Of a stretch of 41,611 nt of DNA, positions 4,471 through 23,827 are shown piece after piece (position 1 is the stretch's first letter; each line of letters begins with the position of its first letter). The DNA comes from a virus. Both the position numbers and the translations under genes were made by a program. Below the pieces are notes generated by a model. That model had not been told where the DNA came from. It saw only the letters and a program-made list of their open reading frames with translations, and did not search any database. The DNA is taken from IMG/VR virus record IMGVR_UViG_3300036845_000265, positions 1 through 41,611 of that record. One strand, 5' to 3'.

Positions 4471-6260
4471 CGATCCGCCAAGGCATCTATGATCTGTTGC
4501 AGGCGGTGGAAATCGACACGAAGGAATTAGGCCGCACTCACGTCGATCCGTGGATGTCTCAACGGCTCGTCATTGACGCCGTAGCCAAGGGGCTTGAGGA
4601 GGGCGTCCATGAATTTGTCGTCCTCAAATGTCGTCAGGTGGCGATCACAACCGTCTGTAGTGTGATCGAACTGTTTTGGGCGCTCGCCAATCCGGGCGTT
4701 CAAGGCGCGATCATCGCCGATCGCACGGACAACCTCGAACGGTTGCGCCGCATCTTCGCCGCGCTCCTCGAGACGCTGCCGCCAGAGTGGCGATCCGAGG
4801 AACACCGGCTGATCAGCAACAATCGCAACGGCATGGCGTTCGCCAACCGCAGCGTGATCGACCTGATGGCTGCGGCGTCCAACCCGGACCTTGGCGCGTC
4901 CCGCGCGCTCAACATGATGCACGCCACCGAGTGCGGACAGTGGAAGTCGCTGGCCGGCGTCGAAAGCCTCAAGGCCTCGCTCGCCCGCGTCAATCCCCAT
5001 CGGCTCTATGTGTGGGAGTCGATCGCAAATGGCTTCAATTGGTTTTACAACCATTGCCAGCAAGCGAAGACCGACCGGCACATGCGGTTTATCTTCATCG
5101 GTTTTTGGGCCAACCCAACCTACTCGATCGCCAAGAGCGATCCTGACTACAAGACCTATTGGGATGGCGGGCATCTGACCGAGGAGGAAATCGAAAAGGC
5201 GCGCTTCGTCAAACGAACCTACGGCGTGACCGTCAAACCGGAGCAAATCGCGTGGTGGCGAAGGGAAGCGGAGTTCCGCGACGAACAATATATGCTCCGA
5301 CACTATCCGTGGAACGAAAGGGAGTGCTTTGTAGCTTCGGGCTCGTCTTTCTTCCCAGCAGCCCGGACCCTAGAGCTGATCGAGGGGTTGACGGAGGGAC
5401 CGAAATATCAGGGCTACAAGTACAGCTTCGAGGATGCCTTCCTTGGATCAACGATAGCCCAAACGACCAATCGGGACGAAGTGATGCTGAGGGTGTACGA
5501 GCCGCCCGATCCAAAGGGCGTGTACGTCATCGGCGGCGATCCGTCGGGCGGCGGCGGGGGGGACGCTAACGACCACGCGATCGAAGTCTTTCGCTGCTAC
5601 GCCGATCGCATCGTCCAAGTCGCCGAGTTCCAGTCGAACAAGCCGCTGACCTATCAATTCAGTTGGGTCTTGTCGCACCTGTGCGGAGCCTACCGCGACC
5701 ACATGGCGAACGTCGAAGTGTCGGGCGTCGGCGCCGCCGTGATCCCCGAGGTCCGCAACCTTCGCCAGCTCGCCGAGCGCGGCATCATCCAAGCCGAGGC
5801 CGGGAGCGACAACATCCTCAACATGATCGGCGCTGTCCGATGGTTCCTCTACAAGCGGGCTGACACGATGGGCGGGGCGGGCAACGTCATCGCGTGGAAG
5901 ACCAATCAGGACAACAAGGCCCACGTCTACAGCGCGCTGCGCGACAGCCTCATGCTGCGGCGAATCGAAATCAGATCAATCCATCTGATGCAGGAGTTGC
6001 AGGCGATCGTTGAGGACGACGGCTGGCTTGGGGCCGGGCCGGACACCGGCGAAAACGACGACCTCGTGAGCGCGACCGTTCTGGCGCACCACACATGGAT
6101 CGAGTGGCGGCGGGCCGGGCTGATCGCTCGCAATCTGACGTGGGATAGCGTGAACGGCAACCGGCCTCCGCAGGACGCGGGCACCGTGCTATCGTTCGCT
6201 TTCAGCGAGCATATTCGAAAAATCAACCAGAAGCAGGCGCGGCCAAGGGACGTGTTTTAA
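4458..6260 (+). CDS. terL: Terminase large subunit
   Basis: A 600-residue packaging motor ATPase and nuclease that threads DNA into the prohead through the portal. A Walker A-like segment CRQVAITT lies at about residues 58-65; it is a variant of the CRQ(V/L)GxTT form with Ala in place of Gly. The Walker B and catalytic glutamate region is MMHATE at about 153-158. The nuclease half starts at GGDPSGG (about 359-365) and ends near TGENDDLVSAT (about 545), giving the acidic metal-binding residues. The ATG at 4458 lies inside the HNH gene, without a clear ribosome site, so coupling is likely. Length fits the family. Confidence 0.92.
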   Translation: MAPVTIRQGIYDLLQAVEIDTKELGRTHVDPWMSQRLVIDAVAKGLEEGVHEFVVLKCRQVAITTVCSVIELFWALANPGVQGAIIADRTDNLERLRRIFAALLETLPPEWRSEEHRLISNNRNGMAFANRSVIDLMAAASNPDLGASRALNMMHATECGQWKSLAGVESLKASLARVNPHRLYVWESIANGFNWFYNHCQQAKTDRHMRFIFIGFWANPTYSIAKSDPDYKTYWDGGHLTEEEIEKARFVKRTYGVTVKPEQIAWWRREAEFRDEQYMLRHYPWNERECFVASGSSFFPAARTLELIEGLTEGPKYQGYKYSFEDAFLGSTIAQTTNRDEVMLRVYEPPDPKGVYVIGGDPSGGGGGDANDHAIEVFRCYADRIVQVAEFQSNKPLTYQFSWVLSHLCGAYRDHMANVEVSGVGAAVIPEVRNLRQLAERGIIQAEAGSDNILNMIGAVRWFLYKRADTMGGAGNVIAWKTNQDNKAHVYSALRDSLMLRRIEIRSIHLMQELQAIVEDDGWLGAGPDTGENDDLVSATVLAHHTWIEWRRAGLIARNLTWDSVNGNRPPQDAGTVLSFAFSEHIRKINQKQARPRDVF

Positions 6261-8372: not shown

Positions 8373-10112
8373 ATGGCCCTCAAAATCCCAAGCCGGGACG
8401 GCGGCTTTCTTGGCGCTTGGGTCAAGGAAATGGTTGACGAGTGCATGGCCAGCGCGAGCGAGCGCGGCATGGTCTACTCGCGCGCCGCCCAATATTATTA
8501 CACCGGGGCCGCCGACAGCCGGGCCGCGCTCTACAACAAAACCAAATCCTTCATCGACAAGCTCGCCGGCTTCCTCATGCAGCCGACCGACGTCCGCTTG
8601 CGGCTCGTCTATGACAGCGGCGAGGACGATAGCGTCCTCGAACGATCCGAGCTGGTGGGCGAAAAGCTGTCGGCCGACTTCCGCCAAGTCGACGGCGATG
8701 TGACTTTCGCCGACGCCGTGACGTGGAGCCTGATCAATGGCGCGGGCCTGTTAAAGATTTTGCCTGACGGCGACAGCGGCACCTTCAAGGTGGCGCAAGT
8801 CCATCCGCAGAACTTCGGCGTCCTGTCCGAAACGACGTTGCATCTGGACGAGCAAGAGGCCTTCTGCCACGTCAGCTATCCGACCAAATCGCGGCTGCGC
8901 ACGTCGCTCATGGAGCATCCGCGCTACAACGAAATCATGAAAGCCCTTGACGACGATCCGGGGCCGGATCGCGACGAGGAGGAAACAACCTACTTTCACC
9001 AAATGGTTGTGGGTGGTCTGCAACCGTTGGGAGACGTTGGCGACGCTCCGTCATCCGCCGCAGGGATCGTCAACGTCTTTCCCGTTCCGACGCCGTGGCG
9101 GCCCAATCGACGTTTCGCCCCGACCGTCAAGCACTGCGAGCTATGGATCAAGGATCGCGACCGCGATGAAGACTGGACGACAATCCAAGTGCTTTACGGT
9201 CACGAGCCGATCATCATCGAAGGCGAGACGACGCGGCGCAATCTAAGCCGCATCCCCGGCAAGCATCCGTTCGTCAAGGTGCAGGGGGGTGAGACGCCCG
9301 GCTATTTCTGGGGCCGTTCGAGCATCGCCGACGTGCAGATGTTGCAGGACATGCTGAATAAGCGGCTGCGCGACATAAAAGTAATGTGGGATCGCAATGT
9401 CAACGCCCCTCAAGTCTTCAGCGGCTTCACCAGCGTCACGGAGGAGCAATACTATAAGATTGTCAATGAGGGAGGTTTTATTAACGACCCAAATCCCAAC
9501 GCGAAAGCGTCGAAGCTACTGGACCCCCCGCCGGAAAACTACTTGGAAGAACTTGAATTTGTTTTCAAGCTGTTTGATGAAGCTAGCGGCTTCAGTCCGA
9601 TCATGTCAGGACAAGGCGAATCGGGAGTCCGGGCTGGAGTCCACGCTCAGACTTTGGTTAGAACTTCATCACCCCACCTTATCAAGCAGGCTTCCAGGAT
9701 CGAGCGGCAGCTCGCTGACTGCGGGTGGCTTGGACTCCGCATCATGCAGGCGATGGACGCGCTCATCTACACGACAGCAGACACGAACCAAGAGTTCCTA
9801 CTCAGCCAGCTCCCCGGCAACTTCCAAGTCCAAGTCGACTCGCACTCCGCGTCGCCCGCCTTCGCGGAAGACAATCGTCAAGTGGCTATTGCGCTCGCTA
9901 GAGCAGGCGCGATCGACGCCGAAGACCTGATCCACATGCTCCATCCGCCCGGCGCCGAGCTGCTGCTAGCGCGCCTGAAGCAGCGTCAGAAAGCGCAGGC
10001 CGCCGCAGCGAAGGAGGACAAGAAGGAAGAAATGATCAAGGGGCTTTTGGGGATCAAGGAAGGCGGCGGCGGATCACGACGTAAAGCCGCCGCCGGCGCA
10101 ACAAAGCACTGA
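8373..10112 (+). CDS. Portal protein
   Basis: A 579-residue portal subunit forming the dodecameric ring through which DNA enters and leaves the head and to which the tail attaches. Typical features are an N-terminal helical region with YSRAAQYYYTGAADSRAALYN, a stem and wing region including WGRSSIADVQMLQDMLNKRL, then FDEASGFSPIMSGQGESGVRAG, as seen in podovirus-type head-tail connectors, and a charged Ala/Lys-rich C-terminus. It starts right after the previous stop. The length suits a podovirus-like portal. Confidence 0.9.
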   Translation: MALKIPSRDGGFLGAWVKEMVDECMASASERGMVYSRAAQYYYTGAADSRAALYNKTKSFIDKLAGFLMQPTDVRLRLVYDSGEDDSVLERSELVGEKLSADFRQVDGDVTFADAVTWSLINGAGLLKILPDGDSGTFKVAQVHPQNFGVLSETTLHLDEQEAFCHVSYPTKSRLRTSLMEHPRYNEIMKALDDDPGPDRDEEETTYFHQMVVGGLQPLGDVGDAPSSAAGIVNVFPVPTPWRPNRRFAPTVKHCELWIKDRDRDEDWTTIQVLYGHEPIIIEGETTRRNLSRIPGKHPFVKVQGGETPGYFWGRSSIADVQMLQDMLNKRLRDIKVMWDRNVNAPQVFSGFTSVTEEQYYKIVNEGGFINDPNPNAKASKLLDPPPENYLEELEFVFKLFDEASGFSPIMSGQGESGVRAGVHAQTLVRTSSPHLIKQASRIERQLADCGWLGLRIMQAMDALIYTTADTNQEFLLSQLPGNFQVQVDSHSASPAFAEDNRQVAIALARAGAIDAEDLIHMLHPPGAELLLARLKQRQKAQAAAAKEDKKEEMIKGLLGIKEGGGGSRRKAAAGATKH

Positions 10113-15925: not shown

Positions 15926-15957
15926 GGTAGGCTGTCAAACGGATCGCTTGACACATG
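15922..15957 (+). repeat. Copy 3 of recurrent motif, between stop and start codons
   Basis: TTAGGGTAGG, C, TGTCAA (15933-15938), 9 bases, TTGACA (15948-15953), CATG. It contains the stop of the adaptor gene (TAG 15923-15925) and ends with the ATG of the next gene (15955), filling the whole intergenic space. No Shine-Dalgarno is present. The 6-bp arms form a perfect inverted repeat with 9-base spacing. Confidence 0.88.
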
Positions 15958-17586
15958 GCCATTCAGTCAGATAATGTTCCCGAGCTAACGACGCTGGAGG
16001 AGTGGAAGGGACTCAACCAGCAATCGAAGCGGGGGAGCATTGATGACCAAGAGGAATGGTGGAACGAAAACCTATTCTCAGTCGGCCCCGGAAATCTTCG
16101 TTCATGCTGGGGACCGTCTGCCCCGATATACACCGCCCCGGCGGGAACGACGATACTTCGCATTTTCTTTGGCTTTTACGGTCGCGGAACTCCTCAGTTC
16201 GGCGCTCCTCCTCCGGGCGCTATGGGTTGGATGTTTCTTAGTGATGGTACGATTGATGAGGTTGACCTTAATACGCACGCGGTCACAGGGCTCCGCGCCG
16301 AAGGCCCCATTTGGGCGGGCGTAGGCAACCCGCCGCAATATTGGGCGAGCGCGAAAGTCTGGCGACCGCAATTCGTCGGCGCAGCTCTAGGCCAGCAAGG
16401 CGGCGTCCTGTTCGGAAGTCCGCAAGGGCTTTACGGTTGGGACGGAACGACACTCAGCTCGCCCGGCGATCCGGCCCCTGATTGGCTGACTGACCTCGCC
16501 GAGACGGACCCCACCGCGCCGATCCCGCCAATGCCGTCCGGTCTGCCCGGCATCTATGCGATGGAAGTCTACCAGTCTCGCCTATGGGTGGCGGGCAAGG
16601 ACGTGATCAGCTTTTCCGCGCCCTCGAACGGCGCTGACTTTTCGACCACCAGCGGCGGCGGCTCGTTCGGCTACTTCGGCGACAAACTTGTCTACTCGTA
16701 CATGGATTTGTACGCCGTCGCAGGCTACCTGTTCGTCTTCGGCGACTCGTCAACCGATCTGATCAGCAACATCCAGCTCACCGGGTCCGGCACGCCGGAA
16801 AGCCCCTACACGACCAACTTCAATTACGAAAACATCGACCCGCAAGTCGGCCAGCGTTTCCCGCGCCCCGTCGGCGTCATCGGCCGCTACATGATCATGT
16901 TCGATGGGTCCGGTCTGTTCCTCATGCAGGGCGGCGACGCGCAGCCGATCGGCGACAAGGTGACGCGCCTCTGGCAAACCCTCGACACGTCGCTCTACAT
17001 GCCGACATTCGCATCCGCGACGATGTTCGGCTTCCGCGTCGTCCTCTGCAACGGACGGTTCACCGATCCTTGGGGCGTCACTCGAAACCTCCAACTCATG
17101 TACCACCCGACGCGCGGTCATGAATTTTGGTCTGTCGCCTCGCAGGGCATCGAAATGACCAACATCGGCACTTACGAGCAAGACTCGATCCTCACGCCAT
17201 ACGGCACCGATGGAACCAACCTTTACAAGCTGTTCGCCCAGCCGGACCCGACGCTGATCAAGCGGCTCGCCACTAAGTCGCTGCGCGGGCAGCAAATGGC
17301 CCAGCTTCAAATCAAGAATTTCAAACGGCTCTATTGCGAGCTGGACGACGAGGACGGGCGCGGCGTCCAGATCACCGGAACCGTGACATCCGGCGACGGC
17401 GGCATCCCCGGCGGGGTGCAGGGCGTCGCCTTCGATCTAGCGCCCGGCGAACGCCACCGGATCATCCCAGCGCCGATCGAGGGAGCCGGAATTTGGGCCG
17501 CAGTTGACTTAACGAGCATTTCGCCTGACTTTGTGATCGAGCGCCTACACCTGACCGCAGATGAGCGGACTCTGTTCGGCGCTTAA
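15955..17586 (+). CDS. Large tail hub or DNA-stabilisation-like protein
   Basis: A 543-residue protein rich in beta-strand stretches (GTTILRIFFGFYG, ALGQQGGVLFGSPQGLYGWD, RLWVAGKDVISFSAPSNG, QRFPRPVGVIGRYMIMFDGS), suggesting a beta-propeller like the tail hub or packaged-DNA stabilisation proteins (P22 gp10 type) that follow head-tail adaptors. The similarity is structural impression only. Its ATG forms the end of the recurrent motif with no ribosome site. The length is near the family's usual 450-550 residues. Confidence 0.6.
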   Translation: MAIQSDNVPELTTLEEWKGLNQQSKRGSIDDQEEWWNENLFSVGPGNLRSCWGPSAPIYTAPAGTTILRIFFGFYGRGTPQFGAPPPGAMGWMFLSDGTIDEVDLNTHAVTGLRAEGPIWAGVGNPPQYWASAKVWRPQFVGAALGQQGGVLFGSPQGLYGWDGTTLSSPGDPAPDWLTDLAETDPTAPIPPMPSGLPGIYAMEVYQSRLWVAGKDVISFSAPSNGADFSTTSGGGSFGYFGDKLVYSYMDLYAVAGYLFVFGDSSTDLISNIQLTGSGTPESPYTTNFNYENIDPQVGQRFPRPVGVIGRYMIMFDGSGLFLMQGGDAQPIGDKVTRLWQTLDTSLYMPTFASATMFGFRVVLCNGRFTDPWGVTRNLQLMYHPTRGHEFWSVASQGIEMTNIGTYEQDSILTPYGTDGTNLYKLFAQPDPTLIKRLATKSLRGQQMAQLQIKNFKRLYCELDDEDGRGVQITGTVTSGDGGIPGGVQGVAFDLAPGERHRIIPAPIEGAGIWAAVDLTSISPDFVIERLHLTADERTLFGA

Positions 17587-17601
17587 CCGTAGAGGCTGAC
17601 C

Positions 17602-17643
17602 ATGCGCAGGGCGCGTCGTAGAGGACGTCGCTACTACCGATAG
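17602..17643 (+). CDS. Arg-rich micro-ORF 1 (13 aa)
   Basis: The peptide is MRRARRRGRRYYR, with 8 Arg in 13 residues. AGAGG lies upstream of the ATG. It is too short to be confident alone; it counts because six more basic ORFs, most with their own ribosome sites, follow. Protamine-like composition suggests nucleic-acid binding. Confidence 0.45.
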   Translation: MRRARRRGRRYYR

Positions 17644-17651
17644 GAGCAACC

Positions 17652-17732
17652 ATGTCCCCCAACTCGAATTGGCTTGATTTCACCGCAGATCGTCGTGGCC
17701 GCCGTGGCCGTCGCCGGTTCCGTCGAAGGTAA
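17652..17732 (+). CDS. Arg-rich micro-ORF 2 (26 aa)
   Basis: AGGAG stands 5 bases before the ATG. The peptide has a polar head (MSPNSNWLDFTAD) and a tail of RRG/RRR units ending FRRR, with 10 Arg in 26. The tail resembles RG-type nucleic-acid-binding segments. Second member of the basic micro-ORF array. Confidence 0.52.
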   Translation: MSPNSNWLDFTADRRGRRGRRRFRRR

Positions 17733-17747
17733 GGCAAGGAGGGGACG

Positions 17748-17822
17748 ATGGCTTGGCGACGATCCCGACCGTTGCGGATGACACGCCGCGCGAGACGCAT
17801 CCGAGCGCGTAAGCGCCGCTGA
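17748..17822 (+). CDS. Arg-rich micro-ORF 3 (24 aa)
   Basis: AAGGAGG before the ATG is an excellent ribosome site. The peptide has 13 Arg/Lys in 24 (MAWRRSRPLRMTRR, then ARKRR at the end). It would bind DNA or RNA electrostatically. Its stop is 1 base before the next ATG, implying coupled translation. Confidence 0.55.
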   Translation: MAWRRSRPLRMTRRARRIRARKRR

Positions 17823-17823
17823 C

Positions 17824-17943
17824 ATGAAGCGGACTGGTCTGCGCAATACGCAAAACTTGCGCAGACAGTTGCAGCCGAAAAGCTGGCGTCTGCCTAGCTG
17901 GCGCCCCCGCCTTAACTCGTATCGGAAAGGCAGGAGGCTCTGA
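17824..17943 (+). CDS. Basic micro-ORF 4 (39 aa)
   Basis: MKRTGLRNTQNLRRQLQPKS, then WRLPSWRPRL and ending YRKGRRL: 13 Arg/Lys in 39 with three Trp/Tyr that could stack on bases. No separate ribosome site, but it starts 1 base after the previous stop, so it is probably coupled. Its TGA overlaps the next ATG. Confidence 0.52.
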   Translation: MKRTGLRNTQNLRRQLQPKSWRLPSWRPRLNSYRKGRRL

Positions 17944-18086
17944 TGGCAAGAGGTGTGAGGCTTGGCCCTCGCAGCCGCGTCGATCCGGCCGGCAAACTCC
18001 CGACCAAACGGCCGACCACCCGCATCAAGCGGGCGCGCGGTCATCGGCAGGGAACCGGGCGTGGGCGCGGGCGCAGGAGGCCATAA
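17943..18086 (+). CDS. Arg-rich micro-ORF 5 (47 aa)
   Basis: AGGAGG before the ATG. MARGVRLGPRSRVDPAGK, then KRPTTRIKRARGHRQG and the GRGRGRRRP tail: 17 Arg/Lys in 47, including an RG repeat. Its stop codon shares its last A with the next ATG. Confidence 0.58.
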   Translation: MARGVRLGPRSRVDPAGKLPTKRPTTRIKRARGHRQGTGRGRGRRRP

Positions 18087-18253
18087 TGGCTCGTCGCTCC
18101 AAGAAGGCCCCCGGTCGCGGCGGCCCCGTTAATCGGCAGCCGTGGAGCGACGGCGCTATGCCCGGCGATTGGGGTAGCGCCCGAAGCAAGCGGCGCGGCC
18201 GATCGCCGCGCCCCGGCGCTCGAACCGGGCCGGTCAGAGGCAGGCGGCGATGA
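18086..18253 (+). CDS. Arg-rich micro-ORF 6 (55 aa)
   Basis: AGGAGG before the ATG. It begins MARRSKKAPGRGG and ends GPVRGRRR, with 17 Arg/Lys in 55 and Gly/Pro/Ser filling the rest, as in protamines. A small acidic-tolerant centre (SDGAMPGDWGS) separates two basic blocks. Its stop overlaps the RuvC-like start (ATGA). Confidence 0.6.
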   Translation: MARRSKKAPGRGGPVNRQPWSDGAMPGDWGSARSKRRGRSPRPGARTGPVRGRRR

Positions 18254-18777
18254 CCATCCTTGGCGTCGACATCGGCGCCAGTGGCGCAATCGCCCACCTA
18301 AGCGACGGCGGCGAGCTGATCGACGTGTGGGACATGCCTTGCCTTCACGACGGGCCGAAGAACCGAAGAACCGTCAATGCTCCGCTCCTCGCTGAAATCA
18401 TCTACAAGTCTCACGCCCTTAGAGCCTTTGTTGAACGCGTCGGTCCTCGACCTATGGAGGGAGCTGTCGGCGCTTTCGCCTTCGGCGATGCAAAAGGCGT
18501 GGTCCGTGGCTGTCTCGCTGCCGCAGCTATTCCCACCACCTTCATCCAGCCCGCCCAATGGAAGCGAATCGTCGGCATCCCGCCCGGAAAAGACATGAAA
18601 GACATGGCCCGATCCGTGGCGATCAACCGCTGGCCCGGCATGGCGGGGAAATTCGCGCGCAAGCTCGATGACGGCAGAGCTGAAGCCGCGCTGATCGGGC
18701 TGGCTGGGTTGCTGCGCTTCAATGACGTGATCGAGCTGGTCCCGATTGAGACGCTTAAGGCGCGGGCAAATGGCTAG
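18250..18777 (+). CDS. RuvC-like Holliday junction resolvase
   Basis: A 175-residue endonuclease of the RNase H fold. Catalytic acidic residues are visible: D7 in GVDIGASGAIA, E62 in FVERVGP, and D140/D141 with E145 in KLDDGRAEAALIGLAG. The intervening GAFAFGDAKGVVRGCLAA and WKRIVGIPPGKDMKD fit phage RuvC relatives. It cuts four-way junctions and complements endonuclease VII. It lies between Arg-rich micro-ORFs 6 and 7 with overlapping starts and stops, so the group is one transcription and translation unit. Confidence 0.9.
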   Translation: MTILGVDIGASGAIAHLSDGGELIDVWDMPCLHDGPKNRRTVNAPLLAEIIYKSHALRAFVERVGPRPMEGAVGAFAFGDAKGVVRGCLAAAAIPTTFIQPAQWKRIVGIPPGKDMKDMARSVAINRWPGMAGKFARKLDDGRAEAALIGLAGLLRFNDVIELVPIETLKARANG

Positions 18778-18856
18778 AGGCTCACGGGCGCAGAAGAAGG
18801 CGCGCAGGCGTAACCTCCGCAAGGGACGAAGCAAGCGGCGCAAGCAAAAGAGGTAG
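18770..18856 (+). CDS. Basic micro-ORF 7 (28 aa)
   Basis: It overlaps the RuvC stop by 8 bases. Peptide MARGSRAQKKARRRNLRKGR, then SKRRKQKR: 16 Arg/Lys in 28. It shares the MARG(S/V)R opening with micro-ORF 5, suggesting duplication. The next gene's ATG is 3 bases away. Confidence 0.55.
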   Translation: MARGSRAQKKARRRNLRKGRSKRRKQKR

Positions 18857-19066: not shown

Positions 19067-19363
19067 ATGGCGAAGCAATCCGAATGGCCGCGAGGGCAAG
19101 CTGACGGCAGCGAGCGCGGAGGTCCGACCGGATGTTTTCAGACACGGGACGGAGTGCTGAAATCAAATCGCTCACTCGCCGGGCCTTTGCGGTACGGAAC
19201 GGCGCCCGGCGTGGGACCAAAAGGGGACGGCGGCGGGAACGGCGCATCTGACTTCGGCATGGACCGGGTGGAGCCGCGTGATTTCGATCCGATGGGCACG
19301 CCGCGCAACCGCTTCGGCGAAATCCCGTCCGAGCTAGTGTCGAGGTCCGCACGACGGCGATGA
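19067..19363 (+). CDS. Hypothetical Gly-rich protein
   Basis: A 98-residue protein, probably disordered, with GGGNGASDFGMDRVEPRDFD and a basic SARRR end. No family recognised. It starts just after the previous stop and its stop overlaps the next ATG (ATGA). Confidence 0.6.
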   Translation: MAKQSEWPRGQADGSERGGPTGCFQTRDGVLKSNRSLAGPLRYGTAPGVGPKGDGGGNGASDFGMDRVEPRDFDPMGTPRNRFGEIPSELVSRSARRR

Positions 19364-19584
19364 AGGTGGCGATCCTCGCGCTCATTCAACTGCAAGCGCC
19401 GGATCACCATCCAATCTGGATCAACCCGAATGGGATACTGGAGTTACATGACGCCCGCGAGGAACATTCGAGCCACTTCGCACCCGGCGCAAAATGCCTG
19501 ATCGAAATGCGCGACGGCGGCACGGTGCAGACCGGCGATGACTGCAATCTGGTGATCAGCAAAATATGGGTGAATCATCCCTAA
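19360..19584 (+). CDS. Small beta-strand-rich phage protein
   Basis: A 74-residue protein with an alternating beta pattern: VAILALIQLQAP, IWINPNGILELHDAREE, KCLIEMRDGGTVQTGDD and LVISKIWV. This LxxP..IWINP..I layout recalls small conserved phage or FlbD-like proteins, but I cannot name a function. Its 3' end overlaps the endolysin start. Confidence 0.65.
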   Translation: MKVAILALIQLQAPDHHPIWINPNGILELHDAREEHSSHFAPGAKCLIEMRDGGTVQTGDDCNLVISKIWVNHP

Positions 19585-22107: not shown

Positions 22108-22580
22108 GCATCCCCGGAAGTTCGAAGGGCGGCGGCTCAAACGCGCAGTTTAACGTCACCGGCGGCGGCTCAAACGCGCCGTGGAGCTGGGGCGTGTCAG
22201 ATTTCGACCAGTCGCAGATCGACACCGCCACCGGCGAAAACGCTACGGCGATCGGCAACCGCTACAACCAGCTTGGGCTTGGCGGCTCAACGATGGAGGG
22301 ACAGGACCAAGGCACGATCCCCACCCCCACCGGCGGCAACATCGGGGCGGGCAAAGCCGTGACCGGGCAGGAACAGACCGCCAACGTCGGCAACGCGGCC
22401 CTCAATCCGGCGCTGCAACCGCAATTCAATGAACAGATCGGCCAGAACACGTCCGGGCAATCGCTTGGCACGCTGGCCGGGCTCGCCGGCAAGGCGGTGG
22501 GTGCGGGCGGAACGGCGGCAGCGGGGGATGCCGCCGGGGATGCCGCGATAGACGACGCAGCAGCTACCTTCCTCTTATGA
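22104..22580 (+). CDS. Gly/Gln-rich virion candidate B
   Basis: A 158-residue protein, MSIPGSSKGGGSNAQF at the start, sharing the opening with the previous gene. It is rich in Gly, Asn and Gln, with an Ala/Gly-rich C-terminus (GKAVGAGGTAAAGDAAGDAA) resembling membrane-interacting segments of ejection proteins. Function unknown. Its stop overlaps the next ATG. Confidence 0.68.
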   Translation: MSIPGSSKGGGSNAQFNVTGGGSNAPWSWGVSDFDQSQIDTATGENATAIGNRYNQLGLGGSTMEGQDQGTIPTPTGGNIGAGKAVTGQEQTANVGNAALNPALQPQFNEQIGQNTSGQSLGTLAGLAGKAVGAGGTAAAGDAAGDAAIDDAAATFLL

Positions 22581-23827
22581 GCGGAGTCGAAATGACGAGC
22601 GTCGACTACCTCAAACTCCGACACACGCATCAGTGGCGCTTTGGCGTCTGTTGGGATGGCGACGGCAGCGGCGGTTCTAGCGGCGACGGCGGCGACGGCG
22701 GCGACGGCGGGTCTGGCACGAGTGGTGTCGGCGGCGCTGGCGCGTCAGTCGGCTTCGGCGGGGCAGGCGACGCGAGCGGTGTCGGCGGCGTAGGCAATGC
22801 GGCAGGAGCGCCCGCCGGGACAAGTTCAACCGGAACGGGCGGCTTCGGCGGTTTTGGCGGCGGCGACGCGGGTGACGCAGGCTTTGGCGGCGCGTCATCG
22901 ACCGGCAGTTCCGTTGGCTTCGGGCCGGGCACTGCGAGCGCAGGCGTTGGGTCAGCCGGAGGCGTCGGCGTCGGCGCGGCTGGCATCGGCGGCCCCGGAT
23001 CGAGCGCGGCGGCCGGCTTCGGCGGCGGCGGGGCAGCGGGTGGCGGCGGGGCGACCGGAGGCAACGCAGGCGGCACCGCTGGCGGGGGCGGCGCCGCGAC
23101 TGGCTTCGGCGTGCGCGGAACAAATTCGCTCACCGCCAACTCACTCGGTCTGGCGTCCCTCTTGGGGCTTGGGCAGTCTGGCCTGCTTGGCGGACTAGGC
23201 AACGCGGCACCCGTGGGCGCGGTCACTTCAGCCCCGCTGGGCGGGCTTGGCGTGCGCGGCATTAGCCAAAGCCAAGTCGCCGCCCTCAACTCAGCCTTGA
23301 AGGGGCTGACCGCGCCGGGACAGGGCGTGGGCGCACCATCGTCTCCGGGCCTCGCCGGGCTGGCGTCGCAAGTCGCTGGAATGAGCGGAACCTTTGGCTT
23401 CCCGGCGCTGGAAGGCGTGAGCCCCGGATTGACCGCCGCGCCGGCCGGCCCTCAAGGACCGGGCTTCGGCGTTTCAATCGGTTCAAGCGGCGCCCCAGCT
23501 CGAGGCGGCGGAACAGCTCGCGGCGGCGGCGGAACGAGCGCGGCGGCGGCGACCCACGCCGCCCCGCCGTCGCCCCCAACGCAAATCGGCATCCCGTCGG
23601 GCATGGAAGCCCTCGCCTCAACGAGTGGGACAGGCAGTGGAACGGGCAGCGGAACCACCGCCGGCAGCGGGGGCGGCGTCGGAACATCGAGCCTCGCTCC
23701 GTCAGCCGCGCAAACAGCCGCATCAACCAGTGGAATAGGGTCAATCCTTACCGACATTCTAGGCGGACTCAGCCCGGCGACCTTACAGCAGCTCGCACAG
23801 ATGGCTTTGGGAGGCGCAGTTGGGTGA
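22577..23827 (+). CDS. Large Gly-rich low-complexity protein
   Basis: A 416-residue protein. After about 25 ordinary residues (VDYLKLRHTHQWRFGVCWDG) it becomes a long Gly/Ala/Ser repeat region with GVGGAG and GFGG units to about residue 175, then a less repetitive region (LTANSLGLASLLGLGQSGLL). Either ATG 22577 or 22591 could start it. Comparable Gly-rich phage proteins are fibrous tail or internal virion components. Its 3' end overlaps the next gene. Confidence 0.65.
   Translation: MSGVEMTSVDYLKLRHTHQWRFGVCWDGDGSGGSSGDGGDGGDGGSGTSGVGGAGASVGFGGAGDASGVGGVGNAAGAPAGTSSTGTGGFGGFGGGDAGDAGFGGASSTGSSVGFGPGTASAGVGSAGGVGVGAAGIGGPGSSAAAGFGGGGAAGGGGATGGNAGGTAGGGGAATGFGVRGTNSLTANSLGLASLLGLGQSGLLGGLGNAAPVGAVTSAPLGGLGVRGISQSQVAALNSALKGLTAPGQGVGAPSSPGLAGLASQVAGMSGTFGFPALEGVSPGLTAAPAGPQGPGFGVSIGSSGAPARGGGTARGGGGTSAAAATHAAPPSPPTQIGIPSGMEALASTSGTGSGTGSGTTAGSGGGVGTSSLAPSAAQTAASTSGIGSILTDILGGLSPATLQQLAQMALGGAVG

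Follow-up and report, generated by a model that had tools for sequence, protein, structure and literature searches.

The described systems nearest to the genes reported here are polypeptide X/mu of the adenovirus core (alongside VII and V), the protamines and baculovirus P6.9, and, among phages, the disruptins. Mature adenovirus mu is a DNA-condensing peptide of 19 amino acids, present in 100-300 copies per virion (PMC7998265). Disruptins are described as lysis peptides that form amphipathic helices; the one from phage PhiKT is short, cationic and antimicrobial (PMC12819732). The accepted view of tailed phages is that the DNA they package is naked (PMC5491326). Phage enzymes of the RuvC type are thought to rid DNA of branches that get in the way of packaging (PMC3864405).

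The peptides described below resemble adenovirus mu in being very short and Arg-rich, in having their genes in the late structural part of a dsDNA viral genome and in occurring as several basic peptides per virus. They differ from mu in that they have no sequence match in Pfam, PHROGs or NCBIfam, need no precursor or protease cleavage, belong to a bacterial virus and are encoded in arrays that can reach nine micro-genes, accompanied by a resolvase gene. With the protamines and P6.9 they share strong Arg/Lys richness at very short length, Arg clusters split by Gly, Ser or aromatics, the expectation of no fold, and a position among late structural genes, either in the gap between the portal and major capsid protein (MCP) genes or behind the tail hub gene. 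However, no homology to any of these described families was found, and four of the phage peptides (B, D, E and F) have 31-42% Arg/Lys together with conserved non-basic motifs. We think that the peptides may work like viral protamine-type peptides without being members by homology. Disruptins are likewise small cationic phage peptides, but the micro-peptides lack, judging by composition, the hydrophobic face of an amphipathic helix and are encoded among head and tail genes. What appears to be new is this class of genes and the way it is organised in tailed phages; adenovirus mu is a putative functional analogue in unrelated viruses.

Micro-ORFs of the window

The window is the whole of a 41.6-kb virus record, from a soil phage. 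Seven Arg-rich micro-ORFs and a RuvC gene (17602-18856) fill the interval between the genes at 15955-17586 and 18859. The features, with their Shine-Dalgarno (SD) sites and the pN/pS of their families, are:

8373..10112, plus strand: portal gene, 30% identity to the annotated portal of MW202753
12909..13841, plus strand: MCP gene, phrog_9953 (E=3.5e-20)
15955..17586, plus strand: anchor gene 5' of the cassette, probably a tail hub/nozzle gene of the podovirus type (P22 gp10-like; AlphaFold and Foldseek)
17602..17643, plus strand: micro-ORF A, 13 aa, MRRARRRGRRYYR; SD GAGG; many relatives have a short pure-Arg peptide here
17652..17732, plus strand: micro-ORF B, 26 aa, family WLDFTEDRRGRR; SD AGGAG; pN/pS 0.16
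17748..17822, plus strand: micro-ORF C, 24 aa, family LKQTRRARRIRARKR; 7-nt SD; pN/pS 0.19
17824..17943, plus strand: micro-ORF D, 39 aa, family WRLPKWRPRLFSYRKGRRL; without SD; pN/pS 0.21
17943..18086, plus strand: micro-ORF E, 47 aa, family MARGVxLGPRSRVDPAG; 6-nt SD; pN/pS 0.19
18086..18253, plus strand: micro-ORF F, 55 aa, family PWSDDAWPSDW..PRPGGRTGPVR; 6-nt SD; pN/pS 0.32
18250..18777, plus strand: RuvC/MOC1-like Holliday junction resolvase, 175 aa; phrog_1770 (E=8e-26), PDB MOC1 (E=2.7e-11)
18770..18856, plus strand: micro-ORF G, 28 aa, family AARRNLRKAR; SD AAGG; pN/pS 0.25

The first-pass annotation had reported ORFs of 13, 26, 24, 39, 47, 55 and 28 codons with about 30-60% Arg/Lys, and these were recovered at 17602, 17652, 17748, 17824, 17943, 18086 and 18770 with 31-62% Arg+Lys. 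The share is 46-62% in A, C, G and a further family, H (MVLVPASRRAARARRRGRR), which occurs in relatives and is absent from the window. The SD sites are present as proposed, but their number was put at five and is six of seven, counting matches of at least 4 nt; the 39-codon ORF is the exception. All of the stop/start overlaps that had been described exist in the sequence: TGATG at 17943, TAATG at 18086, ATGA at 18250 and an 8-nt overlap at 18770. Micro-ORF D starts 1 nt past the stop of C. Two peptides had been said to open alike with MARG(S/V)R; the shared MAR start stands, but the peptides belong to different families, E (MARGVxLGPRSRVDPAG) and G (..ARRNLRKGR). The structure model of micro-ORF F is mostly unstructured (pTM 0.24).

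P22 gp10 and other tail proteins of podoviruses are the structures nearest to the model of the anchor protein, whose confidence is low (pLDDT 58), as is the TM-score (about 0.3; Foldseek to P22 gp10 E=5.5e-6, prob 1.0); on this basis the phage is probably a podovirus. An endolysin gene lies downstream of the cassette at 19566.

A further Arg/Lys-rich ORF of 39 amino acids with a good SD site (19132-19251) was considered as a micro-gene and rejected, as it lies in another frame inside the gene at 19067-19363. Such alternate-frame ORFs recur in relatives and are probably an artefact of the overlapping conserved gene.

Conservation in related phages

Scanning IMG/VR with the anchor protein (543 aa) yielded 72 loci at 53-83% identity, and an alignment-based scan yielded 118 relatives. 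About 80 related IMG/VR phages underlie the cassette comparison; they are kin genomes, and the counts taken from them are not independent. In almost all relatives with a complete region the same peptide families are found, in much the same order and place. Family E is the most conserved, with its motif found in 76 of 79 loci; for family C the scan confirmed only close copies, the peptide being too short.

We calculated pN/pS from Nei-Gojobori counts, with the two other frames of the same alignments as control. The micro-ORF families gave 0.13-0.32 in frame and 1.4-6.0 in the shifted frames. The check for frames or starts broken in relatives found the micro-ORFs intact and the substitutions mostly synonymous. 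Because the families recur in place and the substitutions are mostly synonymous, the comparison establishes the micro-ORFs of the window as real genes under purifying selection, in agreement with the earlier claim that they are genuine coding genes.

The further claim that they are not chance ORFs is backed by strand asymmetry and shuffles as well as by the frame-specific selection. When ORFs of the cassette region were picked by composition alone in the relatives, 144 were on the plus strand and two on the minus strand, and dinucleotide shuffles of 17587-18250 gave an expectation of 0.145 Arg-rich SD-led ORFs against four seen under the same criteria, with none of 2000 shuffles reaching four; both the shuffle and the strand counts derive from related sequences and are not independent events. 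An SD site precedes 81% of the 144 composition-picked ORFs and 51% of long ORFs.

The 71 complete cassettes hold 3-9 Arg-rich peptides each (median 6), where the automatic counts include some alternate-frame overlaps (e.g. L003, L009, L059) and the number per locus is good to about +/-1. Their summed net charge is +30 to +108 (median +68), and Arg makes up 33.5% of residues over all cassettes. Some peptides have small conserved non-basic motifs (LGPRSRVDPAG, PWSDDAWPSDW and WLDFTE), and strictly hydrophobic residues (ILMFVW) have a median of 12%, near zero in the 12-15-mers. Peptide families were often gained or lost on the anchor-gene tree (family H with 12 changes, some of them probably detection errors), and in one locus (L040) a B-type start is fused to an H-type body. 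This turnover and the fusion are signs of modular gain, loss and shuffling of peptide families.

No relative was found among the GTDB genomes scanned with the tail protein and peptide E, searches of named phages with DNA and peptides gave zero matches, and we found no cultured member of the virus family. The micro-ORFs had no match in Pfam or NCBIfam and at best one in PHROG at E=2.9, in searches whose power is limited by the very short queries. A profile of peptide E had no match in the PDB. Searches of the open-access literature, from which most subscription journals are absent, found no paper on such phage genes; together with the Pfam, PHROG and NCBIfam results this agrees with the first-pass statement that no such phage cassette is known.

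The resolvase gene

The 18250-18777 protein aligns to phrog_1770 over residues 1-157 and to MOC1 of the PDB over residues 3-153, and has an N-terminal GVDIGASG motif. The micro-ORFs had been placed in the structural region with a resolvase, and the relatives bear this out: exactly one resolvase-type nuclease gene adjoins the peptides in 79 of 79 complete loci. Its type varies. Assigned by Pfam, PHROGs and PDB matches, three unrelated types are found, namely RuvC/MOC1-like (24 loci), VRR-NUC (43) and Hjc/PDDEXK_15-like (12), where the Pfam scores (PDDEXK_15 and Hjc) of the last type fall short of the curated thresholds and PHROGs label the proteins Holliday junction resolvases. All three are predicted Holliday-junction-type resolvases and belong to the known phage RuvC/MOC1, VRR-NUC and Hjc-type families.

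On the anchor-gene tree the nuclease type switched at least four times, or twice if only well-supported branches are counted. That non-homologous genes have repeatedly taken each other's place here implies that a nuclease for branched DNA would be required at that point of the late operon, and the locus illustrates cleanly how three unrelated resolvases can substitute for one another in a single operon position. We know of no precedent for a constant linkage of a resolvase to an array of polycation micro-genes, or for a three-way exchange at one site. The linkage is confined to the lineage with the expanded set.

Portal-side polycation ORFs

A pattern scan of IMG/VR for an SD site followed by ATG-GCN-(CGN)4 gave 31 matches. 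Eleven belong to the virus family of the window, and ten of these are distant members, whose TerL, portal or MCP has 26-46% identity to that of the window and in which the micro-ORF follows the portal gene. Scanning IMG/VR with the capsid protein showed that the TerL/portal/MCP family comprises at least 581 contigs.

We then defined portal-side polycation ORFs as ORFs of 9-31 codons with at least 40% Arg/Lys and an SD site, located between the portal and MCP genes. Among the 61 loci in which portal and MCP are both present, 49 carry one to three of them, mostly of 11-31 codons and often no more than about 350 nt from the portal stop; relaxed criteria add four loci. The 49 loci hold 65 of these ORFs; the opposite strand has two, and shuffles gave 0.05 per locus. 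Examples are MARRRHRRGRRR, MARKARKGRKSRK and MYKHAKRGRKTRR. The peptides have a median of 60% Arg/Lys, and the shortest consist almost only of R, K, H and G (MARRRHRRGRRR). In three subfamilies pN/pS is 0.11-0.33 in frame and 1.3-12 in the other frames; a fourth gave 0.58 from three pairs, which are too few.

Genome GC ranges from 0.43 to 0.66, and Lys replaces Arg in the portal-side peptides as GC falls (Spearman correlation of GC with Lys share -0.67), with net charge staying at +6 to +11 across the range. It is charge that selection acts on, and codon bias driven by GC does not account for the genes.

Two members in GenBank, MW202753 and MW202825, each have two 13-codon portal-side genes, all unannotated. 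In MW202753 (L090) these SD-led genes are at 4758-4799 and 4878-4919 on the plus strand, far from the annotated resolvase gene of that genome. Over the polycation-gene region of both MW202753 and MW202825 (L091, reverse strand), minus-strand hypothetical genes are annotated in GenBank, and this annotation is probably wrong.

In a small clade no polycation ORF could be recognised on the portal side. Seven loci (L315, L318, L320, L325, L328, L329, L331) have a similar portal-MCP spacing with a gap in which no polycation ORF is recognisable. In Arthrobacter phage Jasmine, tried as outgroup, only 63 nt separate the portal from the next gene. In the window's own lineage, 15 genomes were searched for a counterpart beside the portal and none was found; their portal gap holds a few Arg/Lys-rich SD-led ORFs that are isolated and mutually unlike. 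The distant members covered far enough have no polycation ORFs behind the hub gene. Peptide families H and K are common to the portal-side and the hub-side arrangement. Since no portal-side counterpart was detected in those 15 genomes, the set apparently moved, and the simplest reading would be that a stock of micro-genes changed its place in the structural module and multiplied in the soil lineage. The set of the window has the look of a polycation micro-gene, present portal-side across most of the family, that was expanded in one lineage.

Proposed function and alternatives

Our preferred reading, to which we give a probability of about 0.5, is that these genes encode DNA-binding counter-ion peptides, analogues of mu and protamine, which would act with the resolvase around packaging. 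The cassette would supply polycationic peptides that are short and for the most part unstructured, produced late together with the structural proteins. These would bind the phage's own DNA electrostatically as counter-ions or condensing agents and offset the phosphate charge of the concatemer or of the DNA in the head as it fills, in a mode of action that we liken to that of mu or protamine. The co-encoded resolvase would debranch the same DNA before or during packaging, and the LGPRSRVDPAG, PWSDDAWPSDW and WLDFTE motifs may serve to attach some of the peptides to a protein of the virion. The role proposed in the first-pass annotation, namely DNA condensation, charge neutralisation or handling of branched DNA, would fit all the comparative evidence.

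Several results support the DNA-binding reading: the selection on every family and the charge kept despite Lys/Arg exchange, the linkage to a nuclease in 79 of 79 loci with swaps among three interchangeable unrelated types, the location in the portal-MCP gap or behind the hub gene with H and K in both arrangements, and the several peptides per genome with a summed charge of about +68 and an unstructured model for F. Other points count against it. If tailed phages package naked DNA, the peptides would have to reach the inside of the head by a route of their own; speculatively, small peptides might diffuse through the shell, or might dock via the motifs of E and F. The resolvase linkage is found only in the expanded lineage, with the MW202753 peptides far from its resolvase, the small clade has no recognisable portal-side polycation ORF, and the conserved non-basic motifs of E and F go beyond pure charge neutralisation. 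It is possible, and we hold this more tentatively, that this large podovirus-like family depends on more than naked DNA: most members would encode polyamine/protamine analogues which coat the genome or go in with it as it is packaged, one soil lineage having amplified and diversified the gene into a set of 3-9 with an exchangeable debranching nuclease.

If the DNA-binding reading is true, tailed phages would encode protamine-like genome peptides, contrary to the textbook view of naked DNA in heads, and a source of packaging counter-ions besides host polyamines would become testable. Whatever the function, annotation has missed conserved functional genes of about 11-31 codons, many of them below the usual size limit of gene finders.

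The peptides might instead be assembly cofactors that link virion proteins (portal, tail hub, scaffold, capsid) through their acidic surfaces, for instance by cementing the capsid or the head-tail joint, with nucleic-acid binding being secondary. This would suit genes that always adjoin portal/capsid or tail-hub genes, and the conserved aromatic/acidic motifs in B, E and F. Yet the shortest peptides, made of R, K, H and G with Lys and Arg interchanging, offer little for specific protein contact, and the multiplicity and turnover of peptide types and the link to a DNA nuclease also speak against it; we consider a cofactor role unlikely.

Arginine-rich motifs are a classic RNA-binding device. 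The peptides could accordingly be directed at mRNA, rRNA or a transcript hairpin, or the micro-ORFs could be leaders that tune the translation of the structural genes next to them via a polybasic nascent chain, to which the tight start/stop coupling would lend itself. However, a search of the window against Rfam returned zero matches, a leader peptide would not be expected in two locations followed by different genes or in sets of as many as nine, and bodies of 24-60 amino acids are conserved residue by residue. An RNA-directed role therefore seems to us distinctly improbable.

We give very little credence to lysis or envelope-active peptides of the disruptin kind, suggested by the position upstream of the endolysin gene at 19566 and by the short cationic PhiKT peptide (PMC12819732): disruptins are amphipathic, yet the hydrophobic content here is a median of 12% and near zero in the 12-15-mers, and most of the family has its genes between portal and MCP, away from lysis genes. 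Chance ORFs or a by-product of CGN-rich DNA, plausible insofar as GC-rich DNA readily yields Arg-rich ORFs, are refuted at the sequence level by frame-specific purifying selection, the 144 to 2 strand asymmetry, the shuffles and Lys-bearing versions at GC 0.43-0.52.

Further basic and repetitive ORFs

Some cassettes have additional RGG-box-like peptides among their micro-ORFs, of about 48-75 amino acids with Arg/Gly/Phe repeats (L014, L045, L049, L052, L056, L220, L222, L232, L234), several of which contain a GPPxFAMAFGRR-like stretch; the window has none. In one clade (L012, L013, L015, L020, L030, L043, L060) a Gly/Ser-rich gene lies directly 3' of the resolvase gene. It resembles the gene at 22577-23827 of the window, which indicates that the module order was rearranged. 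Arg/Lys-rich ORFs of about 33-78 amino acids were also seen on five contigs with no detected kinship to the family (L242, L248, L250, L261, L266), and some of these ORFs share a CRFGKVRRGRRKGxC-like motif.
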